Source: Maribacter sp. ACAM166
Lineage (GTDB): Bacteria > Bacteroidota > Bacteroidia > Flavobacteriales > Flavobacteriaceae
Reading direction: 5' to 3'
Assembly: GCF_005771495.1 (NCBI RefSeq)
Contig: NZ_VAUW01000005.1
Location: 1-64,000, forward strand
Length of the DNA: 64,000 nt
Part shown: in pieces, positions 21,389 through 30,167 of the stretch
Position numbering within the stretch: position 1 is the first letter of the stretch
Layout of the letters: each line of letters begins with the position of its first letter
Translations under genes and position numbers: made by a program
The notes under the pieces: generated by a model
Databases searched by the model: none
Told to the model about the DNA's origin: nothing
What the model saw: only the letters and a program-made list of their open reading frames with translations

Positions 21389-21462
21389 GGCTCCGTGGCG
21401 CAACTGAATAGCGCATCAGATTTCGGCTCTGAGGGTTGGGGGTTTGAATCCCTTCGGAGTCA
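21389..21462 (+). tRNA. tRNA-Arg (anticodon UCG)
   Basis: A 74-nt cloverleaf. The acceptor stem GGCTCCG pairs with CGGAGTC (one G-T pair), the anticodon stem TCAGA pairs with TCTGA around the loop TTTCGGC, giving anticodon TCG, and the T arm is GGGGGTTTGAATCCC. Discriminator base A; CCA is not encoded. Its 3' end from 21446 is the attachment site of an integrative element and is repeated at 30110. Confidence 0.95.
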
Positions 21463-21469
21463 CTAGTTT
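21446..21469 (+). repeat. attL: 24-bp direct repeat in the tRNA-Arg 3' end
   Basis: The last 17 bases of the tRNA plus 7 bases beyond are repeated exactly at 30110-30133. The tRNA stays intact on this side. Confidence 0.9.
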
Positions 21470-21474
21470 AAAAT

Positions 21475-21511: not shown

Positions 21512-21576
21512 ATCTCTTATTATTTTATAAATGGTACGATAAATGGTACAATAATGATTTAGAGAAGTCTTTTTTA

Positions 21577-21651
21577 CTAGATTCTATTCGGAACATTACT
21601 ATATTTTTTCGATGACTCGCCACTAACGAAACTATCTTAAATTTCTTTGTT
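21577..21651 (-). pseudogene. Decayed 3' fragment of the 78-aa gene, copy 1
   Basis: On the minus strand this reads NKEI*DSFVSGESSKKYSNVP followed by a stop. It lines up with NKILEISSFVGGESLNRYSNVP of the intact gene at 23719-23955. It has an in-frame stop and no start. It touches the 3' end of the following lipoprotein gene. Confidence 0.7.
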
Positions 21652-22002: not shown

Positions 22003-22130
22003 TCAAATTTCCTTTGGTATATTATAATACCTATTCAATGACTCGCTCCCTGCGAAACTAACTATACCTAAAATTTTAGTAGTTGATTTATCATACATTA
22101 CCTCAACCTAAACATAAGATAAAAGCAGTT
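22003..22130 (-). pseudogene. Decayed copy 2 of the 78-aa gene
   Basis: The minus strand reads SYV*VEVMYDKSTTKILGIV and then SFAGSESLNRYYNIPKEI and a stop. This matches the C-terminal half of the intact protein closely, but the conserved Trp codon is TAG and the upstream part has further stops. It lies in the 378-bp gap before the nuclease gene; the rest of that gap (22131-22279) is AT-rich, with only a short inverted repeat agtat-atact near 22200. Confidence 0.75.
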
Positions 22131-22279: not shown

Positions 22280-23722
22280 ATGTCATTGGATTATTACAAA
22301 GAATATTGCGTTAATAATAGCAATCATTTAGATAGAATTACAAATGATAAATCTTACATCAATCAAGATGTCAGGATTACCGGTGAAGTAACTAGTCTTG
22401 GGAAAGTAAAAAAAATATACGGTCATCTTAATGTAGATGAGCAGTTAGAAGATTTAGGTTATTTAAACTATGTGAAAACAGATTTGTGGTGTAATCAAAA
22501 AGAATCAACGTTAAAAACTCTCGGTAAATTGGAGAGGATAGGGGGTAATCTTAACTTAAGATATTCTAACGTAGAGGATTTAGGAGAGTTATGTAGGGTG
22601 TCTGGGAATATTAGTTTAAGAGACTCAAAAATCAGAGACCTTGGAAAGTTGAAATATGTTGGAGGCAATTTGTATTTACCAAAAAGACTTGAAGGTTGTG
22701 ATTTAACTAAAATAATTGTTAAAGGTAAAATTCGTTTTTGGAATGATGTTACAGACTCTCAATCCTTGACTTTAAATAAAACTCTAAGTTGGGATGTTTC
22801 AAAAACATGTTTTTCTCAGGTTCATAATAATGAAATATCTCATAAAAAAAGACACCTAAATGGGAAAATACTTGTACAAAAATGTTTTAGACCCACAGAT
22901 TTAAATTCTTATATTTTAGAAAACATAGACGATTTTTACACATTTGTAGATAAAGAAATTAATGAGTTATACGGGCAAGAATACTCTTTTTATAAAGCCT
23001 TTTTCGGTTGTATAAAAACCTCATCAGAAATTAATAAAGAATTTCCAAAAGTTAGAATTGATAAAAAAATTAAAGGTTACATTAAAAACCAAAAGAGAAA
23101 GGCACATCAAATAATACAAACAAACAAACTGAATTATCCATTTGTTTTGTACAATAACAAATTAACCGAGTTTATTTTAAAATATGATTTTAAAAACGAT
23201 GTTAATGATTTTATAATGATTGGTTATCCCAATGACCACAAATTAGGATACGATTACTACAAATGTGCGGGTAAAAAAAATATATTTATATATTATATAG
23301 AGAGAATTATAACTGAAATTTTTACGGTTTTTTGTTTTCAATTACAAAACAAGTTCAGAGTTTCAAGAGGTATTCCCAAAATTGGTGAGGGTTGGGTTTC
23401 AGAAACACATTTATTTTACAAAATAAGAGAGTTTTTGTTACCCGTTGAGGTAATTCATCATGGTAGACCCAAATGGTTAAAACCTCAACATGTGGACATT
23501 TGGATACCAAATTATAAAATTGGGATTGAGTATCAAGGGCAACAACACTATAAACCTATCGAATTTTTTGGTGGTGAGGAAGCCTTCATAAAAAACCAAG
23601 AACGAGATGAGAGAAAAAGAAATCTCTTTATTGAAAACAACGCCACATTAATTGACGTAAGCAGTGATTATATTTTAGAGGAATTGGTTTTGCAGTTAAA
23701 TAATTTGATTAAGAACTATTAA
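22280..23722 (+). CDS. Leucine-rich-like repeat protein fused to a PD-(D/E)XK-type nuclease domain
   Basis: A 480-residue soluble protein in two parts. Residues about 39-133 hold repeats of the form LGxLxxVxGxLxL (clear at 81, 101 and 121, exactly 20 residues apart), which should form a solenoid that could bind protein or nucleic acid. The C-terminal part (about 368-460) looks like a restriction-type nuclease: SETHLF with Glu375, then WLKPQHVDIWIP with Asp406, then IEYQGQQHY with Glu417, and ERDERKRN near 441-448. The middle (about 200-360) is not recognised. It is the largest cargo gene of the element and overlaps the next gene, on the other strand, by 4 bp. A defence role is inferred from context, not shown. 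Confidence 0.7.
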   Translation: MSLDYYKEYCVNNSNHLDRITNDKSYINQDVRITGEVTSLGKVKKIYGHLNVDEQLEDLGYLNYVKTDLWCNQKESTLKTLGKLERIGGNLNLRYSNVEDLGELCRVSGNISLRDSKIRDLGKLKYVGGNLYLPKRLEGCDLTKIIVKGKIRFWNDVTDSQSLTLNKTLSWDVSKTCFSQVHNNEISHKKRHLNGKILVQKCFRPTDLNSYILENIDDFYTFVDKEINELYGQEYSFYKAFFGCIKTSSEINKEFPKVRIDKKIKGYIKNQKRKAHQIIQTNKLNYPFVLYNNKLTEFILKYDFKNDVNDFIMIGYPNDHKLGYDYYKCAGKKNIFIYYIERIITEIFTVFCFQLQNKFRVSRGIPKIGEGWVSETHLFYKIREFLLPVEVIHHGRPKWLKPQHVDIWIPNYKIGIEYQGQQHYKPIEFFGGEEAFIKNQERDERKRNLFIENNATLIDVSSDYILEELVLQLNNLIKNY

Positions 23723-23955
23723 ATCTCCTTAGGAACATTACTATACCTATTCAATGATTCACCACCTACAAAACTACTTATTTCTAAAATCTTATTAGTT
23801 GGCGCATCATACATTATTTCAACCCAAAAATAGGAAAGCGAATAAATTATATAAGTAACCCTATCTTCTTTAACTGAATCTACGAATTGACCTTTAGTAA
23901 AAACGGTGTCATATTTGCCATGGTCTGATAGTATGTTGAAATCGTATATACCCAT
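23719..23955 (-). CDS. Small unknown protein (78 aa), intact copy of a repeated gene
   Basis: A 78-residue acidic protein without signal sequence: MGIYDFNILSDHGKYDTVFT at the start and SFVGGESLNRYSNVPKEI at the end. It looks like a single small alpha/beta domain. No family recognised. Two decayed relatives lie at 21577-21651 and 22003-22130 in the same orientation. Its start codon overlaps the stop of the 124-aa gene (TAATG), so the two are translationally coupled, and its 3' end overlaps the nuclease gene tail to tail by 4 bp. Confidence 0.6.
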   Translation of the reverse strand: MGIYDFNILSDHGKYDTVFTKGQFVDSVKEDRVTYIIYSLSYFWVEIMYDAPTNKILEISSFVGGESLNRYSNVPKEI

Positions 23956-25549: not shown

Positions 25550-26821
25550 CTACCAATTAAACAACCTTTGTTGATTTTCTGAATATAGGGCGGTTTGTTT
25601 TATCCTACCGTTACTATGTGCGTTTCTGATATTGTGCGCTATCTCTTTTATTTGGGTTTTGTGGTCTGCGTTATTCCATAACCTAGAAAGATATCTTGCT
25701 CTTATCTCTTTATATTTTTTTTTATCGGTCTTATAATAGTAATTTAAGCCTGTATGACTTAATAAAATACTATCCGTTTTCTGCATTGAAATATTCAAAC
25801 CAGTAACTAAACAGATTCGTCTGTTTTTGTCTGTTTCTGTAGAAGTAGAAACTACCGTTTTTAACAGTATATGTAAAGGGTTAATTTCGGTAGTTTGCAT
25901 ATTTAAGAAATCAACCTTTAGGTCGATTAAGTTTGATACTATTTTCTTTGGGTTGTTTGGGTTTAAATCAATCAATTTATTTAGTTGGCTTCTGTGGTAT
26001 TTGAAGTTCTCATAATTGAGTTCGCTCCACCAATTAACATTGTTGTACTTATTGTCGTTTTTAGTGGCTTTTATCATTTCTAAATCACAGTATAGCACTT
26101 CTTGCCACAACCTCAGCAAATCGCTTTTAAGGGTGCTTAAATCGTGCTTGATTAAATCATTGAGGGTGTAAATTCCTTTATCGTTTAACTCTACCATTTT
26201 GCACCACTTTTTTTCAATTCTCATTATCTCATTATCAATCTTAAAACCCTTGTTCGTGTAGTGTGTTTTCTTATCATATAATTTTATAAAGTGTCTTTGG
26301 TTCTTTACTTGTATGTAGTTTCCTTCATCCTGTGTGTAAACCCATTTAAAAGGCTTTGTCTTGTGCATTATAGAAGCCTTTATAAGGTTTTTTGTCTTTA
26401 TTGGCGGCACTATGTTAACTCCAATTTCTAACTGGATTAAAACACAATTAAAAGTTAGTATATCAAACTTCTTTTTTAAATCTGCCAAAACAATAATTAT
26501 CTCATTAATACCAAAATCATTAAAGTTGTGTGCGCCTTTATTCCAATACTTATGTAAACTTCCTTCTACCGTTACTCGTCTGTAATTTGTTATTTCCGTG
26601 GTTTCATATATTTTAAATTCTAGACCTCTATAAAAAGCAGACTTGTGAATTGTTAGATATTTAGTTCTGCCATCTTTGTAAAAAGTCTTTTTTCCATTGT
26701 TTAGGATTGGTATTAATTCGCCATTTTCGGTTACGTTTCTTAAAACAAAATACAACAAACTGTTACCTTCTAATTCCTTAGGGTTCGAGTTAATCAATTC
26801 GTATTTTAAGAAGTCAATCAA
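25550..26821 (-). CDS. Replication-initiator-like protein of the element (423 aa)
   Basis: A 423-residue soluble protein. Its N-terminal two-thirds follow the pattern of phage and plasmid initiators of the RstA/gene II type: GSLHKY (87-92), QLEIGVNI (130-137), KLYDKK (180-185), MRIEKK (200-205) and YTLNDLI (218-224). The C-terminus carries ICLVTGLNISMQK and IAHNIRNAHSN, blocks I associate with this kind of flavobacterial element. If the reading is right it nicks an origin to start rolling-circle copying of the excised circle. A catalytic tyrosine cannot be singled out, so the role is only probable. Confidence 0.5.
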   Translation of the reverse strand: MIDFLKYELINSNPKELEGNSLLYFVLRNVTENGELIPILNNGKKTFYKDGRTKYLTIHKSAFYRGLEFKIYETTEITNYRRVTVEGSLHKYWNKGAHNFNDFGINEIIIVLADLKKKFDILTFNCVLIQLEIGVNIVPPIKTKNLIKASIMHKTKPFKWVYTQDEGNYIQVKNQRHFIKLYDKKTHYTNKGFKIDNEIMRIEKKWCKMVELNDKGIYTLNDLIKHDLSTLKSDLLRLWQEVLYCDLEMIKATKNDNKYNNVNWWSELNYENFKYHRSQLNKLIDLNPNNPKKIVSNLIDLKVDFLNMQTTEINPLHILLKTVVSTSTETDKNRRICLVTGLNISMQKTDSILLSHTGLNYYYKTDKKKYKEIRARYLSRLWNNADHKTQIKEIAHNIRNAHSNGRIKQTALYSENQQRLFNW

Positions 26822-26922: not shown

Positions 26923-27309
26923 TTAGTCTGTAAATAGTGGCAAAAGGTTCGTTAAATCCTTTGTGTAGTAGTTCTCGAAGTACTTAATTGTGAGAGTTCT
27001 GGCGTTATTTGAAAACTTAAAGAGTGTCAGGTGTTTTCTCTTATGTAAATTACCTTTATAGATTAAAGGAATTGCAGTCTTAAATAGGCCAGTTAGCCAT
27101 TCGCTGTACTTCTTGCCTTGCTTAATCTTAAACCAATAGTCTGGCATTGATTTTGCACACTTCCTGTCTTTGCTAATGTTAACTAAAGTAGATAGTTTAT
27201 TTTTCGGGTCGTCAAGTCCTACTAGTTGGTAGTGCTTTGTTGCAATGTACTTACCTACATTAATTTCATTATAAACGTAGGTACTGTGTTGTAGTGTCTG
27301 CGTTGCCAT
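26923..27309 (-). CDS. Element core protein of unknown function (128 aa)
   Basis: A 128-residue basic protein with many Tyr, Lys and Asn residues and no signal peptide. The central KSMPDYWFKIKQGKKYSEWL segment may be a nucleic-acid contact surface. No family recognised. It lies 3 bp downstream of the HTH gene and upstream of the initiator-like gene, so the three probably form one operon serving replication or excision. Confidence 0.6.
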   Translation of the reverse strand: MATQTLQHSTYVYNEINVGKYIATKHYQLVGLDDPKNKLSTLVNISKDRKCAKSMPDYWFKIKQGKKYSEWLTGLFKTAIPLIYKGNLHKRKHLTLFKFSNNARTLTIKYFENYYTKDLTNLLPLFTD

Positions 27310-27312
27310 ATC

Positions 27313-27579
27313 TTAATTATTAAGTTTGACAATGCTTTGTTCTACTTGTGAACGTAGATATAGAACTCTACCACCTATCTGCAATTTTTGAAGTGTCCCA
27401 CGCTTGCTTAAATTGTGAACGGTTGACAAATCCACCGATAACAATTTTGCTACTTCTTGGCGTGTTAAATAAGTTTTAGGTTGTTTGGGTTGAAAGGATT
27501 TTTTCAGAGTTTCTAGTTCTCTTTTGATATAATCAATATCATTTAAAAACTCTTTTGGTAATTCAATTTGTACTTGCAT
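27313..27579 (-). CDS. Excisionase-like helix-turn-helix protein (88 aa)
   Basis: An 88-residue protein with an N-terminal coiled segment and a MerR-like winged HTH of the excisionase type at about 36-84: TYLTRQEVAKLLSVDLSTVH is the HTH, and RVLYLRSQVEQSI the wing and last helix. Such proteins steer integrase towards excision or act as repressors. Its own start codon lies inside one arm of a 15-bp inverted repeat, which suggests autoregulation. Confidence 0.85.
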   Translation of the reverse strand: MQVQIELPKEFLNDIDYIKRELETLKKSFQPKQPKTYLTRQEVAKLLSVDLSTVHNLSKRGTLQKLQIGGRVLYLRSQVEQSIVKLNN

Positions 27580-27658: not shown

Positions 27659-28405
27659 CTAGCGATTTTTATTTATTTTCATTGAAATATATTCAGATAG
27701 GGAGTTCGCTAATTCCTTTAAAAATTTACTTTCACCACTATTTGAGTTAAATTTCGTAATTGCTTGGTCTATATTATTTAGTTGTTTATTGAAGGTTTTT
27801 TGTACTGTATTAAAAATAACCTCTTGGTTTCCTTTTAAATTACCATTTACAATTAAGGCCTTTGTCAGTTCTATTAAATCCGTTTGACTACCATACCATT
27901 GTAAGTCATAGTTGGTTGTTTTTATTTGTTGGCTATTGTCTCTTAAGGAAGGGTTTTGTAGTTCTTTTCTTTTTTTTACTAGGCTAGATAATATATTGCA
28001 CCTCGAATAAACTATAAGTATATCATTATGGATTAACCTATAAAGTTCCGAAGTTTCATCTTGTAATAAGTCAAATGTATTCAATTCTAAAAAATTACAA
28101 CATTCTTCTATGTTTTTACAATTATATGTATTGGACAACATATTAATCAATGTGTTACTTTCCGATTCTAAGTAATAATTATTTTTAAAGATACCTTCGT
28201 CAAAGTTATATGATAGGAATGGCCAACCCGCATCTAGCATTTCAGAAAAACGAATTATTTCTTTATTTATCTTGCCTATTTGAGTTTCAATATCATAAAT
28301 AGGTAGTTCATTGAATGTTTCAAAATCATGCATTTCCGTACCTCGATAATTATTATCTACATAGTTTTTTAGCCAAAAATATATTTGGTTATCTGTATTT
28401 TCCAT
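27659..28405 (-). CDS. RteC-family protein (248 aa)
   Basis: The C-terminal part (about 168-245) fits the RteC domain: LQWYGSQTDLIELTKALIVN, followed by QKTFNKQLNNIDQAITKF and a terminal helix. RteC of the Bacteroides conjugative transposon CTnDOT controls expression of excision genes, so this protein probably regulates excision here. The N-terminal half is helical and less conserved. It sits between integrase and HTH genes on the same strand, with an integrase terminator just upstream of it. Confidence 0.8.
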   Translation of the reverse strand: MENTDNQIYFWLKNYVDNNYRGTEMHDFETFNELPIYDIETQIGKINKEIIRFSEMLDAGWPFLSYNFDEGIFKNNYYLESESNTLINMLSNTYNCKNIEECCNFLELNTFDLLQDETSELYRLIHNDILIVYSRCNILSSLVKKRKELQNPSLRDNSQQIKTTNYDLQWYGSQTDLIELTKALIVNGNLKGNQEVIFNTVQKTFNKQLNNIDQAITKFNSNSGESKFLKELANSLSEYISMKINKNR

Positions 28406-28501: not shown

Positions 28502-29941
28502 CTAAATGACTTTTGGTATAACCGTTAATTTAATATTATTCTTTTCTTTTTTTCTTTTTTCGTGGAATTGGTCTATTTGTTCTTTAGTTCTTAATATGTT
28601 GCTTTCATCATTGTTATTTATATAGGCTTTTAGTTGTTGTTCTGTGCTGTGTCCAGTTATAGAGGTTATTAGGGCGGTATCTATTTTGCCGTAGTAGTTT
28701 GTTGCAAATGAACGTCTAAAACTTCTAGTGGTTATTAAATCGTGCTTTGGGAAGTAGTCCGTAATGTTTCGAGTAACCTTTTTACCTTTAATTTCAATAA
28801 CGGTTGATTTTTTACCTTTTATGCTTTCGTTTATTTCTGAAAGTGCGCAAACCGTTTTTATATCTTCATTGAGTTTAACACCATTATTAGGATAGTTGGT
28901 TTGAGGTAACCCATATTTTTCGATTAAATATTGCATCCTGTTTGAAACTGTTATTTGCACTACAGTGTCCGTTTTTTCAGTTCTGAACTTCCAATAATTA
29001 ACTCCGTCAACATTTTTTATATTAGTGTCAATTAATTTGTTGAGGTCGGAATATCTTAAGCCAGTTTCACAACCAATTAAAATTGCTTTTTTAGCATCAA
29101 ACAACCTTGTATCTGTAATTTCTTTTTTATCTATTTTGTCTATTTCTTCATAATCTAGTGTCACTACAATTTTATCTTTATATACCTTGTCGAACATAGT
29201 AAATGACCTTAAGGTTTTACTTACTTGTATATTATTTTCTTCGTCCGCTTCATATGCCTTAACCGCTGAACTTCTAAACTTTTTGAGTTGAGCATTTACA
29301 TATGATTTACTGTATTTCATTTCTATGAAAGCCCAATTCATAAAGTGATTTGCAAAATCTTGATTTAGTTCTTTTATCGTAAAAACTTGATTTTTATAAT
29401 CTTGATATTTTAATAGTAGACCGAGGGTGACCTTGTATTTTTTTAATTCGCTATTGTTAGTCTTGTACCTAATGAACATTTTTTTGATTGCAGTACCTAA
29501 TAAATTTATTTGAAGTATTTCGTCTTTTAATGTTTCTTCGGTTTGCTCGATTCGTTTATTCTCTGAATCTATGAGGTTTATCTTTTCCGTAGTGTTTAAG
29601 ATAGTTACAGTTTCTAGAATTGCAGACTTTAGCCAATTCGATGTAATTGGAATACTGTTGTTGTAGTCCCTTATGAAAAGAATTTTAATAGACTGTTGTA
29701 CTTCCTTTAGGTATTCTTTGTGATTGTATGCTTCCCCCGAAATATTGGTTGATACGTCTTTTAACTGTAGATGTTTCTGAACGGTTTTACCTAGTTTGTT
29801 AGTTGTTCTTCTATACCAATACTTTTTTTCGGATTCAATCGGTGTTGCTACTCTATAGTCAATTTCTTTACCATGTATCAGCCTTATTGATAGTTTTCCG
29901 TTTTCTTTAGAACCTCTATACAGGAAATTTAATTTTGCCAT
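28502..29941 (-). CDS. int: Tyrosine recombinase (integrase)
   Basis: A 479-residue phage-type integrase with an N-terminal Arm-like region, a SAM-like core-binding domain (about 150-250) and a catalytic domain. Visible catalytic residues are Arg296 in ETGLRYSDL, Arg409 in TRSFRRSFATN, His431 in ITGHS and the nucleophile Tyr440 in LKAYINNND. The first His of the usual HxxR motif is Arg406 here. It should recombine the 24-bp repeats in tRNA-Arg. It has its own promoter and terminator. Confidence 0.95.
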   Translation of the reverse strand: MAKLNFLYRGSKENGKLSIRLIHGKEIDYRVATPIESEKKYWYRRTTNKLGKTVQKHLQLKDVSTNISGEAYNHKEYLKEVQQSIKILFIRDYNNSIPITSNWLKSAILETVTILNTTEKINLIDSENKRIEQTEETLKDEILQINLLGTAIKKMFIRYKTNNSELKKYKVTLGLLLKYQDYKNQVFTIKELNQDFANHFMNWAFIEMKYSKSYVNAQLKKFRSSAVKAYEADEENNIQVSKTLRSFTMFDKVYKDKIVVTLDYEEIDKIDKKEITDTRLFDAKKAILIGCETGLRYSDLNKLIDTNIKNVDGVNYWKFRTEKTDTVVQITVSNRMQYLIEKYGLPQTNYPNNGVKLNEDIKTVCALSEINESIKGKKSTVIEIKGKKVTRNITDYFPKHDLITTRSFRRSFATNYYGKIDTALITSITGHSTEQQLKAYINNNDESNILRTKEQIDQFHEKRKKEKNNIKLTVIPKVI

Positions 29942-29971: not shown

Positions 29972-30109
29972 TGTAATTGGTACGATTTATGGTACGATTA
30001 TGTGCAATTTCATTCAAACGATTTAAAGTATATTAAATAATCATACTTGCTAGGGTCATTATTATATAGGTTTTTTAATTGATATAGTTTTAAGGTTGTT
30101 TTGATATTC

Positions 30110-30133
30110 GAATCCCTTCGGAGTCACTAGTTT
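30110..30133 (+). repeat. attR: second copy of the 24-bp repeat
   Basis: Identical to 21446-21469 and marks the right end of the element. The rest of the tRNA is absent here, and the original host terminator follows directly. Confidence 0.9.
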
Positions 30134-30134
30134 T

Positions 30135-30167
30135 AAAAAAGGTCTTGCATTTGCAAGACCTTTTTTT
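30135..30167 (+). terminator. Original terminator of tRNA-Arg, displaced by the element
   Basis: AAGGTCTTGC faces GCAAGACCTT around an ATTT loop, with a T run. It begins right behind attR, where it would have followed the tRNA before integration. The next 278 bp (30168-30445) hold no gene. Confidence 0.85.

Follow-up and report, generated by a model that had tools for sequence, protein, structure and literature searches.

Background

What might a protein do that carries leucine-rich repeats (LRR) at one end and a series of nuclease-type residues at the other, and that is encoded in a small integrative element of Maribacter sp. ACAM166? The gene in question, here called the LRR-nuclease gene, specifies 480 amino acids and lies in the window, a stretch of 64,000 nucleotides at the start of contig NZ_VAUW01000005.1 (Table 1). 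The original prediction, made from the DNA letters alone, described a fusion of solenoid repeats and a restriction-type nuclease on a mobile island, and suggested a single-gene anti-phage or anti-plasmid system. Here we examine the domains of the protein, its relatives and the surroundings in which they are encoded, and suggest, as a possibility, that the LRR-nuclease is a hitherto undescribed defence system of one gene, directed at phages or at other mobile DNA.

Table 1. Features of the tRNA-Arg integrative element and of the LRR-nuclease gene within it (positions in the window)
Feature	Position	Strand	Remark
tRNA-Arg (tcg), integration site	21389..21463	+	
attL, direct repeat over tRNA-Arg 3' end	21443..21473	+	31 bp
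LRR-nuclease gene, 480 aa	22280..23722	+	ORF call; ATG start, no internal stop
Putative N-terminal LRR / receptor-L type module, residues ~30-160	22367..22759	+	Repeats and profiles
Middle region, residues 161-353	22760..23338	+	Alignable with the middle of L035
Predicted C-terminal EDxHD/DUF559-type nuclease domain, residues ~354-472	23339..23695	+	Profiles and invariant residues
78-aa ORF	23719..23955	-	Relative in G050 element, 62% identical
423-aa chassis ORF	25550..26821	-	No family match; 30% identical to G245 element ORF
128-aa chassis ORF	26923..27309	-	Relatives in G050 and G245 elements
HTH_17 / excisionase-like protein	27313..27579	-	Relatives in all three related elements
RteC-family protein	27659..28405	-	G245 element relative, 33% over 100 aa
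Tyrosine recombinase (integrase)	28502..29941	-	Identity to the integrases in the three related elements: 73%, 64% and 38%
attR, second copy of 31-bp repeat	30107..30137	+	94% identical to attL

Results and discussion

Library matches and relatives

The ORFs that flank the LRR-nuclease gene on either side lie on the opposite strand. Searches with its product returned no Pfam or NCBIfam match (E-values up to 1) and none of the PADLOC 2023 families (E-values up to 1, in a scan of the 480-aa protein itself rather than its relatives), in agreement with the earlier remark that no named defence system with this layout was known. PHROGs was the sole one of these libraries to match, and did so at the C-terminus, with phrog_27771 (1.2e-24) and phrog_19778 (5.2e-22), both of unknown function, phrog_559 (2.4e-17, an HNH endonuclease by name) and phrog_9084 (1.4e-11, homing endonuclease).

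Scanning genomes with an alignment of eight rows gave at least 593 matching stretches, and at least 451 loci encode relatives, of which the best 80 were kept. The combined LRR and nuclease layout, with matches running from the N-terminal part through to the C-terminus, was found in 19 of these best 80 (L035, L036, L038-L040, L043-L045, L047-L052, L054, L066, L078, L081 and L082; L082, its frame broken as called, was left out of all protein alignments). Seventeen of the 19 are of Bacteroidota type (Flavobacteriales, Chitinophaga-type, Bacteroidales and similar groups), and two belong to Melioribacter/Melioribacteraceae; L035 is 52% identical to the 480-aa protein over the aligned length. Of 50,697 annotated phage records, 178 match; in no case is more than 80% of the query covered, and the matches (60 of the 178 listed) start at residue 320 or later. 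Plasmids gave 42 matching records out of 72,556, starting at residue 329 or later in the 40 listed, with 17 of the 42 typed as conjugative and 5 as mobilizable. Within the family, any match was present in 9 of 299 genomes, the own one included, and most of these match one domain only.

N-terminal LRR module

Windows in the register L--L--V-G-L-L occur at residues 40, 81, 101 and 121, each fitting 6/6 positions. Residues 1-160 hold four windows fitting at least 5/6, against a mean of 0.45 in shuffled sequences, where 1 of 2000 shuffles reached four. The 20-residue repeats that had been described at 81, 101 and 121 are borne out, with the window at 40 as a fourth; an earlier repeat pattern with another spacing had no occurrence in the 480-aa protein. 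A profile of the LRR parts of 16 members matched the leucine-rich repeat protein 8z5u in the PDB (3.4e-6) and receptor L domains (let-23, 1e-3; EGFR, 0.03 and weaker), while the match of the 480-aa protein alone to 8z5u was weaker (0.074); a literature search found no paper naming 8Z5U. Pfam Recep_L_domain was detected in 9 of the 19 LRR-type members at E-values up to 0.1 (best 1.8e-4), and in 1 of 57 family members at 0.001. By family profile, an assignment of the predicted N-terminal solenoid to the LRR / receptor-L type is supported.

The LRR module is also encoded without the nuclease (L005, L006 and L166). At 1e-8 it was matched in 4 of 395 genomes of the class, the own one counted, and in two of the three others the matches are long repeat proteins of a different look. 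Elsewhere in the ACAM166 genome, a decayed gene on contig 22 (82167-82592; L002, L169) encodes an LRR module without nuclease; a different N-terminus precedes the same module, and its kin are L005, L006 and L166. A Vsr-family fragment with one stop was also observed, on contig 37 (4893-5018).

C-terminal nuclease domain

The family alignment comprised 57 rows, namely the 480-aa protein plus 56 relatives out of the 80 fetched, the other 24 being left out. Residues R360, E375, D406, E417, Y418, G420, Q422, H423, G431, G432, D443 and K446 are invariant in all 57; Glu375, Asp406 (in HVDIWIP), Glu417 (in IEYQG) and the QH pair (Q422-H423), on which the original prediction had relied, are all among them. 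When three phage enzymes were added, in an alignment of the nuclease domain only (51 rows), D406, E417, Q419, G420, Q422, H423, G431, G432, D443 and K446 were still invariant, and E375 was only nearly so (90% or more). Profile comparison with hhalign matched the nuclease domain to three phage homing endonucleases (E=3.4e-25, 94 columns), to DUF559 (PF04480; E=1.2e-8, 92 columns) and to DUF2726 (E=5.9e-6). In the DUF559 alignment E375, D406, E417, H423 and D443 pair with E, D, E, H and D. The profile had no PDB sequence matches. Membership of the Vsr family (PF03852) was ruled out, with no Pfam match and, against 12 Vsr sequences, an hhalign Prob of 0.4 (E 0.17).

Given the ordered invariant residues and the profile matches to phage enzymes, DUF559 and DUF2726, we conclude that the C-terminus is a predicted nuclease domain of the PD-(D/E)XK superfamily, of EDxHD/DUF559 type. 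We take the EDxHD label, given by motif, to be that of I-Bth0305I-type enzymes. Of the restriction-type nuclease originally proposed, the nuclease stands, on the DUF559 and phage-enzyme matches, while a classical restriction enzyme gives way to a probable EDxHD/DUF559 flavour. EDxHD enzymes have restriction-enzyme-like, metal-dependent active sites and join the nuclease domain to elongated DNA-binding regions, according to one report (PMC3943268).

Modular N-termini and the middle region

N-termini are diverse across the wider family, and Pfam matches among 57 members are scattered. Single-linkage clustering at an E-value of 1e-4 of 72 of 81 sequences, including the 480-aa protein and excluding 5'-partial or short ones, gave clusters of 38, 11, 7, 6, 2 and 2 and six singletons. 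In several phage and genome members, zinc-knuckle-like repeats, judged by eye, replace the LRR.

The middle of the 480-aa protein aligns with that of L035, and showed no significant similarity to the middles of the other LRR-type members. A TerB_N-like middle in the 480-aa protein itself was tried as a candidate and found unsupported (hhalign Prob 3.4; no Pfam TerB_N match). The middles of the LRR-type members, taken without the 480-aa protein and L035, matched those of 19 non-LRR members of the 38-sequence cluster (Prob 98.9, E 1.2e-17), and Pfam TerB_N was detected in 4 of the 57 family members, a count not divided into LRR-type and other members. On the strength of these two results, most LRR-type relatives appear to carry a TerB_N-like middle. 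Comparisons with a single TerB_N sequence were not significant, either for the LRR-type middles (Prob 1.7) or for the non-LRR middles (Prob 10.1), and a literature search found no paper in which TerB-N is combined with Vsr, or TerB_N with a "nuclease domain".

Transfer and selection

Silent divergence (dS) between LRR-nuclease genes was compared with that between the ftsZ genes (first 380 codons) of the same organisms. The LRR-nuclease dS was 0.24 against 1.79 for ftsZ in the pair Kordia/Wenyingzhuangia, 0.54 against 1.89 in an Aquimarina MAG/Wenyingzhuangia, 0.42 against a saturated ftsZ value in the Aquimarina MAG/Kordia, and 0.65 against 1.49 between two Aequorivita species. Aequorivita/Kordia gave no sign of recent transfer (2.5, ftsZ saturated), and silent sites are saturated between the 480-aa protein and L035. 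Over four LRR-type pairs, of which three are drawn from one set of three genes, dN/dS was 0.107-0.161, the LRR and nuclease parts both being constrained. By these estimates, LRR-nuclease genes have evidently moved between genera and are under purifying selection.

The integrative element at tRNA-Arg

The att repeats bound an element of about 8.7 kb. Its tyrosine recombinase matches Pfam Phage_integrase at 9.3e-5, below the family cut-off, and a PHROG integrase at 1.1e-9. GC content is 28-32% within the element and 34-40% on its left, the first 2 kb on the right also being about 32%. Of 18 same-genus genomes, 11 could be read for 0.6-1.5 kb after this tRNA; the island is absent there from all 11, and matches adjoining the tRNA extend over 82 bp at most; the right flank of the element is not common to these 11 genomes. 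With a tRNA site, 31-bp att repeats, an integrase and related elements that hold other cargo, the description of the gene as cargo of a small integrative element proved correct.

The LRR-nuclease gene stands between copies of the tail of the 78-aa gene, fragments of which (DNA about 77-78% identical) lie upstream of it at 21587-21646 and 22005-22119. A cassette mechanism acting through these repeats was considered and rejected, the repeats being present in the ACAM166 element alone and in neither the G050 nor the G245 element. An inner direct repeat, 83% identical, lies just inside the element ends (21528-21556 and 29974-30002); the 28-bp exact repeat just inside the ends of the G050 element has a similar look, and the inner repeats of the ACAM166 and G050 elements are possibly recombinase arm sites.

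Related elements and their cargo

Close integrases were found in three further genomes of the 249 family genomes searched, and each belongs to an element (G050, G245 and G122) whose direct repeat lies at the 3' end of a tRNA-Arg. The G050 element (contig 9, L210; 7.0 kb, tRNA-Arg(tcg)) has a 24-bp repeat, which was used in preference to its longest repeat (28 bp exact, just inside the ends) because the latter lies off the tRNA, and carries genes for HATPase_c and DUF4325 proteins, which may together be a candidate defence system of two genes. It comes from a different genus, where its site is again tRNA-Arg(tcg), with a yqeY relative upstream. The G245 element (contig 19, L211; 21-bp repeat, 14.3 kb) contains large ORFs and a HEPN match below cut-off, the large ORFs (636 and 1244 aa) having, by eye, a phage-tail-like look. 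The G122 element (contig 13, L213/L214; 15.3 kb, tRNA-Arg(acg)) has a repeat of 14 exact bases, the minimum length sought, supported by its position at the tRNA 3' end. Its cargo is a Type I restriction-modification (R-M) system, with N6_Mtase, Methylase_S and a ResIII/SWI2_SNF2/T1R_D3 protein corresponding to the M, S and R genes; a GIY-YIG/DUF4357 protein is encoded there as well.

The HTH protein is common to all three related elements, the other chassis ORFs only in part. Both the Type I R-M genes of G122 and the HATPase_c and DUF4325 genes of G050 lie between the tRNA-Arg and the chassis, which is the slot of the LRR-nuclease gene; no relative of that gene was found in the G050, G245 or G122 elements.

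Gene neighbourhoods of relatives

Neighbours were taken as the 113 ORFs within four genes of the 18 LRR-type loci. In the listed part of the result (25 of 33 families), PADLOC at 1e-20 detected AbiEi (2), AbiEii (2), AbiD and AbiLi, along with PDC-M12, PDC-M16, PDC-M42, typeIV_RecD and mad3. Among the 25 of 111 Pfam families listed are pP_pnuc_1 (2), Phage_integrase (2), WYL (2), Abi_2, AbiJ_NTD3, a caspase domain and HipA_C, and also the housekeeping families H_PPase and SAICAR_synt. The twofold tallies of AbiEi/AbiEii and pP_pnuc_1 probably derive from the sister Aequorivita loci L038 and L040, so that they are not independent. A control set of 111 ORFs, from 18 arbitrary stretches of nine same-family genomes (other genomes than those of the relatives), yielded 105 PADLOC families at 1e-4 as against 109 for the neighbours, which is near equal. 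The control list was led by helicase, MotB-like, dGTPase and UvrD-like families, and also contained AbiH, PDC-S48 and mad3, once each. The two sets differ in the kind of family only, over the top 25 of each list, a contrast rather than a statistical test.

No constant partner gene recurs in all 18 LRR-type loci (264 ORFs). Recurrence was seen for recombinases, at 5 loci, and for an AbiE-like pair, at 3, of which two belong to sister Aequorivita species. Tyrosine-recombinase genes or fragments were identified at 6 of the 18 loci, a motif regex giving 2 of 18 and Pfam on selected ORFs raising the count to six, one of them a fragment. Thirteen plasmid neighbourhoods, picked from the listed rows of the 42 records and judged by eye without a control, include seven with R-M, Abi, TIR, HEPN or CBASS-like annotations and three beside SOS peptidases or error-prone polymerases. 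In an Acinetobacter seifertii plasmid (L194, 392-6387), a nuclease relative lies downstream of an S-4TM effector and nucleotidyltransferase pair, and of an N-6 methylase and BsuBI/PstI-type restriction pair. Homologues mainly at housekeeping loci, which would have told against the original prediction, were not what these 18 loci and 13 plasmid stretches showed, though 3 of the 13 adjoin SOS or polymerase genes.

Proposed function and alternatives

On balance, and by a modest degree, we favour the view that the LRR-nuclease is a single-gene, horizontally transferred sensor-nuclease acting against foreign DNA and carried as cargo of a small tRNA-Arg element; its nuclease activity, substrate, sensing by LRR, activation and protection against phages or plasmids are the parts that we infer. 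By itself or together with the middle region, the LRR module would keep the nuclease inactive or guide it, until a ligand borne by a phage or plasmid contacted the sensor and freed the nuclease. The freed metal-dependent effector of EDxHD/DUF559 type would cut DNA (or RNA), invading or cellular. Arguing for an immune role are the invariant catalytic-type residues, the R-M genes in the related slot, the inter-genus transfer and purifying selection, and also the absence of a constant partner, the varied N-termini, the defence-type neighbours and the recombinases at 6 of 18 loci. Support for defence is circumstantial, and comes most strongly from the differing cargo of the related elements, one with Type I R-M. 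It is weakened by the closest characterised domain relatives being homing endonucleases and by the occurrence of LRR modules without nuclease.

These very relatives raise the alternative of a homing-type selfish endonuclease, in which the EDxHD-type domain would cut a specific site to spread the gene, with the N-terminal module as its targeting part. The phage homing endonucleases recovered through phrog_9084 and hhalign are the nearest characterised relatives of the C-terminus, related phage enzymes sit inside or beside terL, and the position between 78-aa gene tail copies could mark an insertion. We nonetheless regard homing as unlikely: the 18 LRR-type loci have no insertion context in common, 0 of 178 phage records cover more than 80% of the query, several phage and genome members have zinc-knuckle-like repeats (by eye) where the LRR would be, and the gene stands alone where an integrase-driven element holds its cargo. 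Alternatively, the gene may serve the element and exclude or destroy rival plasmids, related islands or incoming conjugative DNA; resistance to phages would then be lacking or a side effect. Carriage by an integrative element, the plasmid-borne relatives, some conjugative or mobilizable, and the absence of a constant partner gene all fit such a role, yet the Abi, R-M and CBASS-like genes among the relatives' neighbours speak mildly against it, and we consider it improbable.

TerB_N is linked to stress systems, and its detection in 4 of 57 members, together with the 3 of 13 plasmid relatives that adjoin SOS peptidases or error-prone polymerases, could point to general cargo with no part in immunity, namely a nuclease of DNA repair or stress response. 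The sparse distribution of the LRR-nuclease (9 of 299 family genomes with any match) counts against this, and neither the inter-genus transfer nor the R-M genes found in the corresponding slot of a related element fits it so well, leaving repair with a low probability. It is in view of the near-equal PADLOC counts, the sister-species tallies and the SOS or polymerase neighbours that our preference for an immune role is kept slight and that repair retains a small share. Within the immune reading, we put forward tentatively, and as somewhat doubtful, that the relatives form a modular family in which one EDxHD-type nuclease effector is combined with interchangeable N-terminal sensors, the Bacteroidota branch being an NTPase-free LRR receptor in one polypeptide that would go straight from recognising a ligand to cutting nucleic acid.

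Comparison with known systems

If the immune reading is true, a frequent single-gene defence family with relatives at no fewer than 451 loci would be added, phage homing endonucleases would be linked to cellular immunity, and the LRR-nuclease would offer a compact model for LRR-to-nuclease signalling without an oligomerising NTPase; since one of the related elements carries Type I R-M genes, the cargo logic can be tested through them. A search of titles and abstract openings, covering few subscription papers, found no description of an LRR and nuclease architecture.

The bacterial NLR-like sensors bNACHT and Avs join a sensor repeat domain to an effector; the LRR-nuclease differs in that no NTPase, STAND or NACHT domain was detected in it (0 Pfam families). 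Shango is described as a TerB-domain anti-phage system of three genes, including a helicase and an ATPase (PMC10250203); the likeness to it lies in the TerB_N of 4 of 57 LRR-nuclease family members, and the 480-aa protein, which has none, is unlike it. Vsr-type PD-(D/E)XK nuclease effectors occur in ARMADA, Druantia-like and type III-B CoCoNuT systems, which are described as helicase-fused and multi-gene (PMC12458937, PMC11090510), whereas no helicase was detected in the LRR-nuclease and Pfam Vsr does not align with it. DUF559 (PF04480) is similar by profile, although the 480-aa protein itself has no Pfam DUF559 match, and DUF559 lacks the PIEFFGGEE segment in the alignment with the LRR-nuclease family. 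Phage homing endonucleases of EDxHD type ("VSR homing endonuclease" of Staphylococcus phage Quidividi and kin) resemble the LRR-nuclease in the nuclease domain, the GEGW-SET segment of which is absent from the two phage rows compared; the other half of the LRR-nuclease, in contrast, consists of the LRR module and a long middle region, and its gene lies outside an intron.
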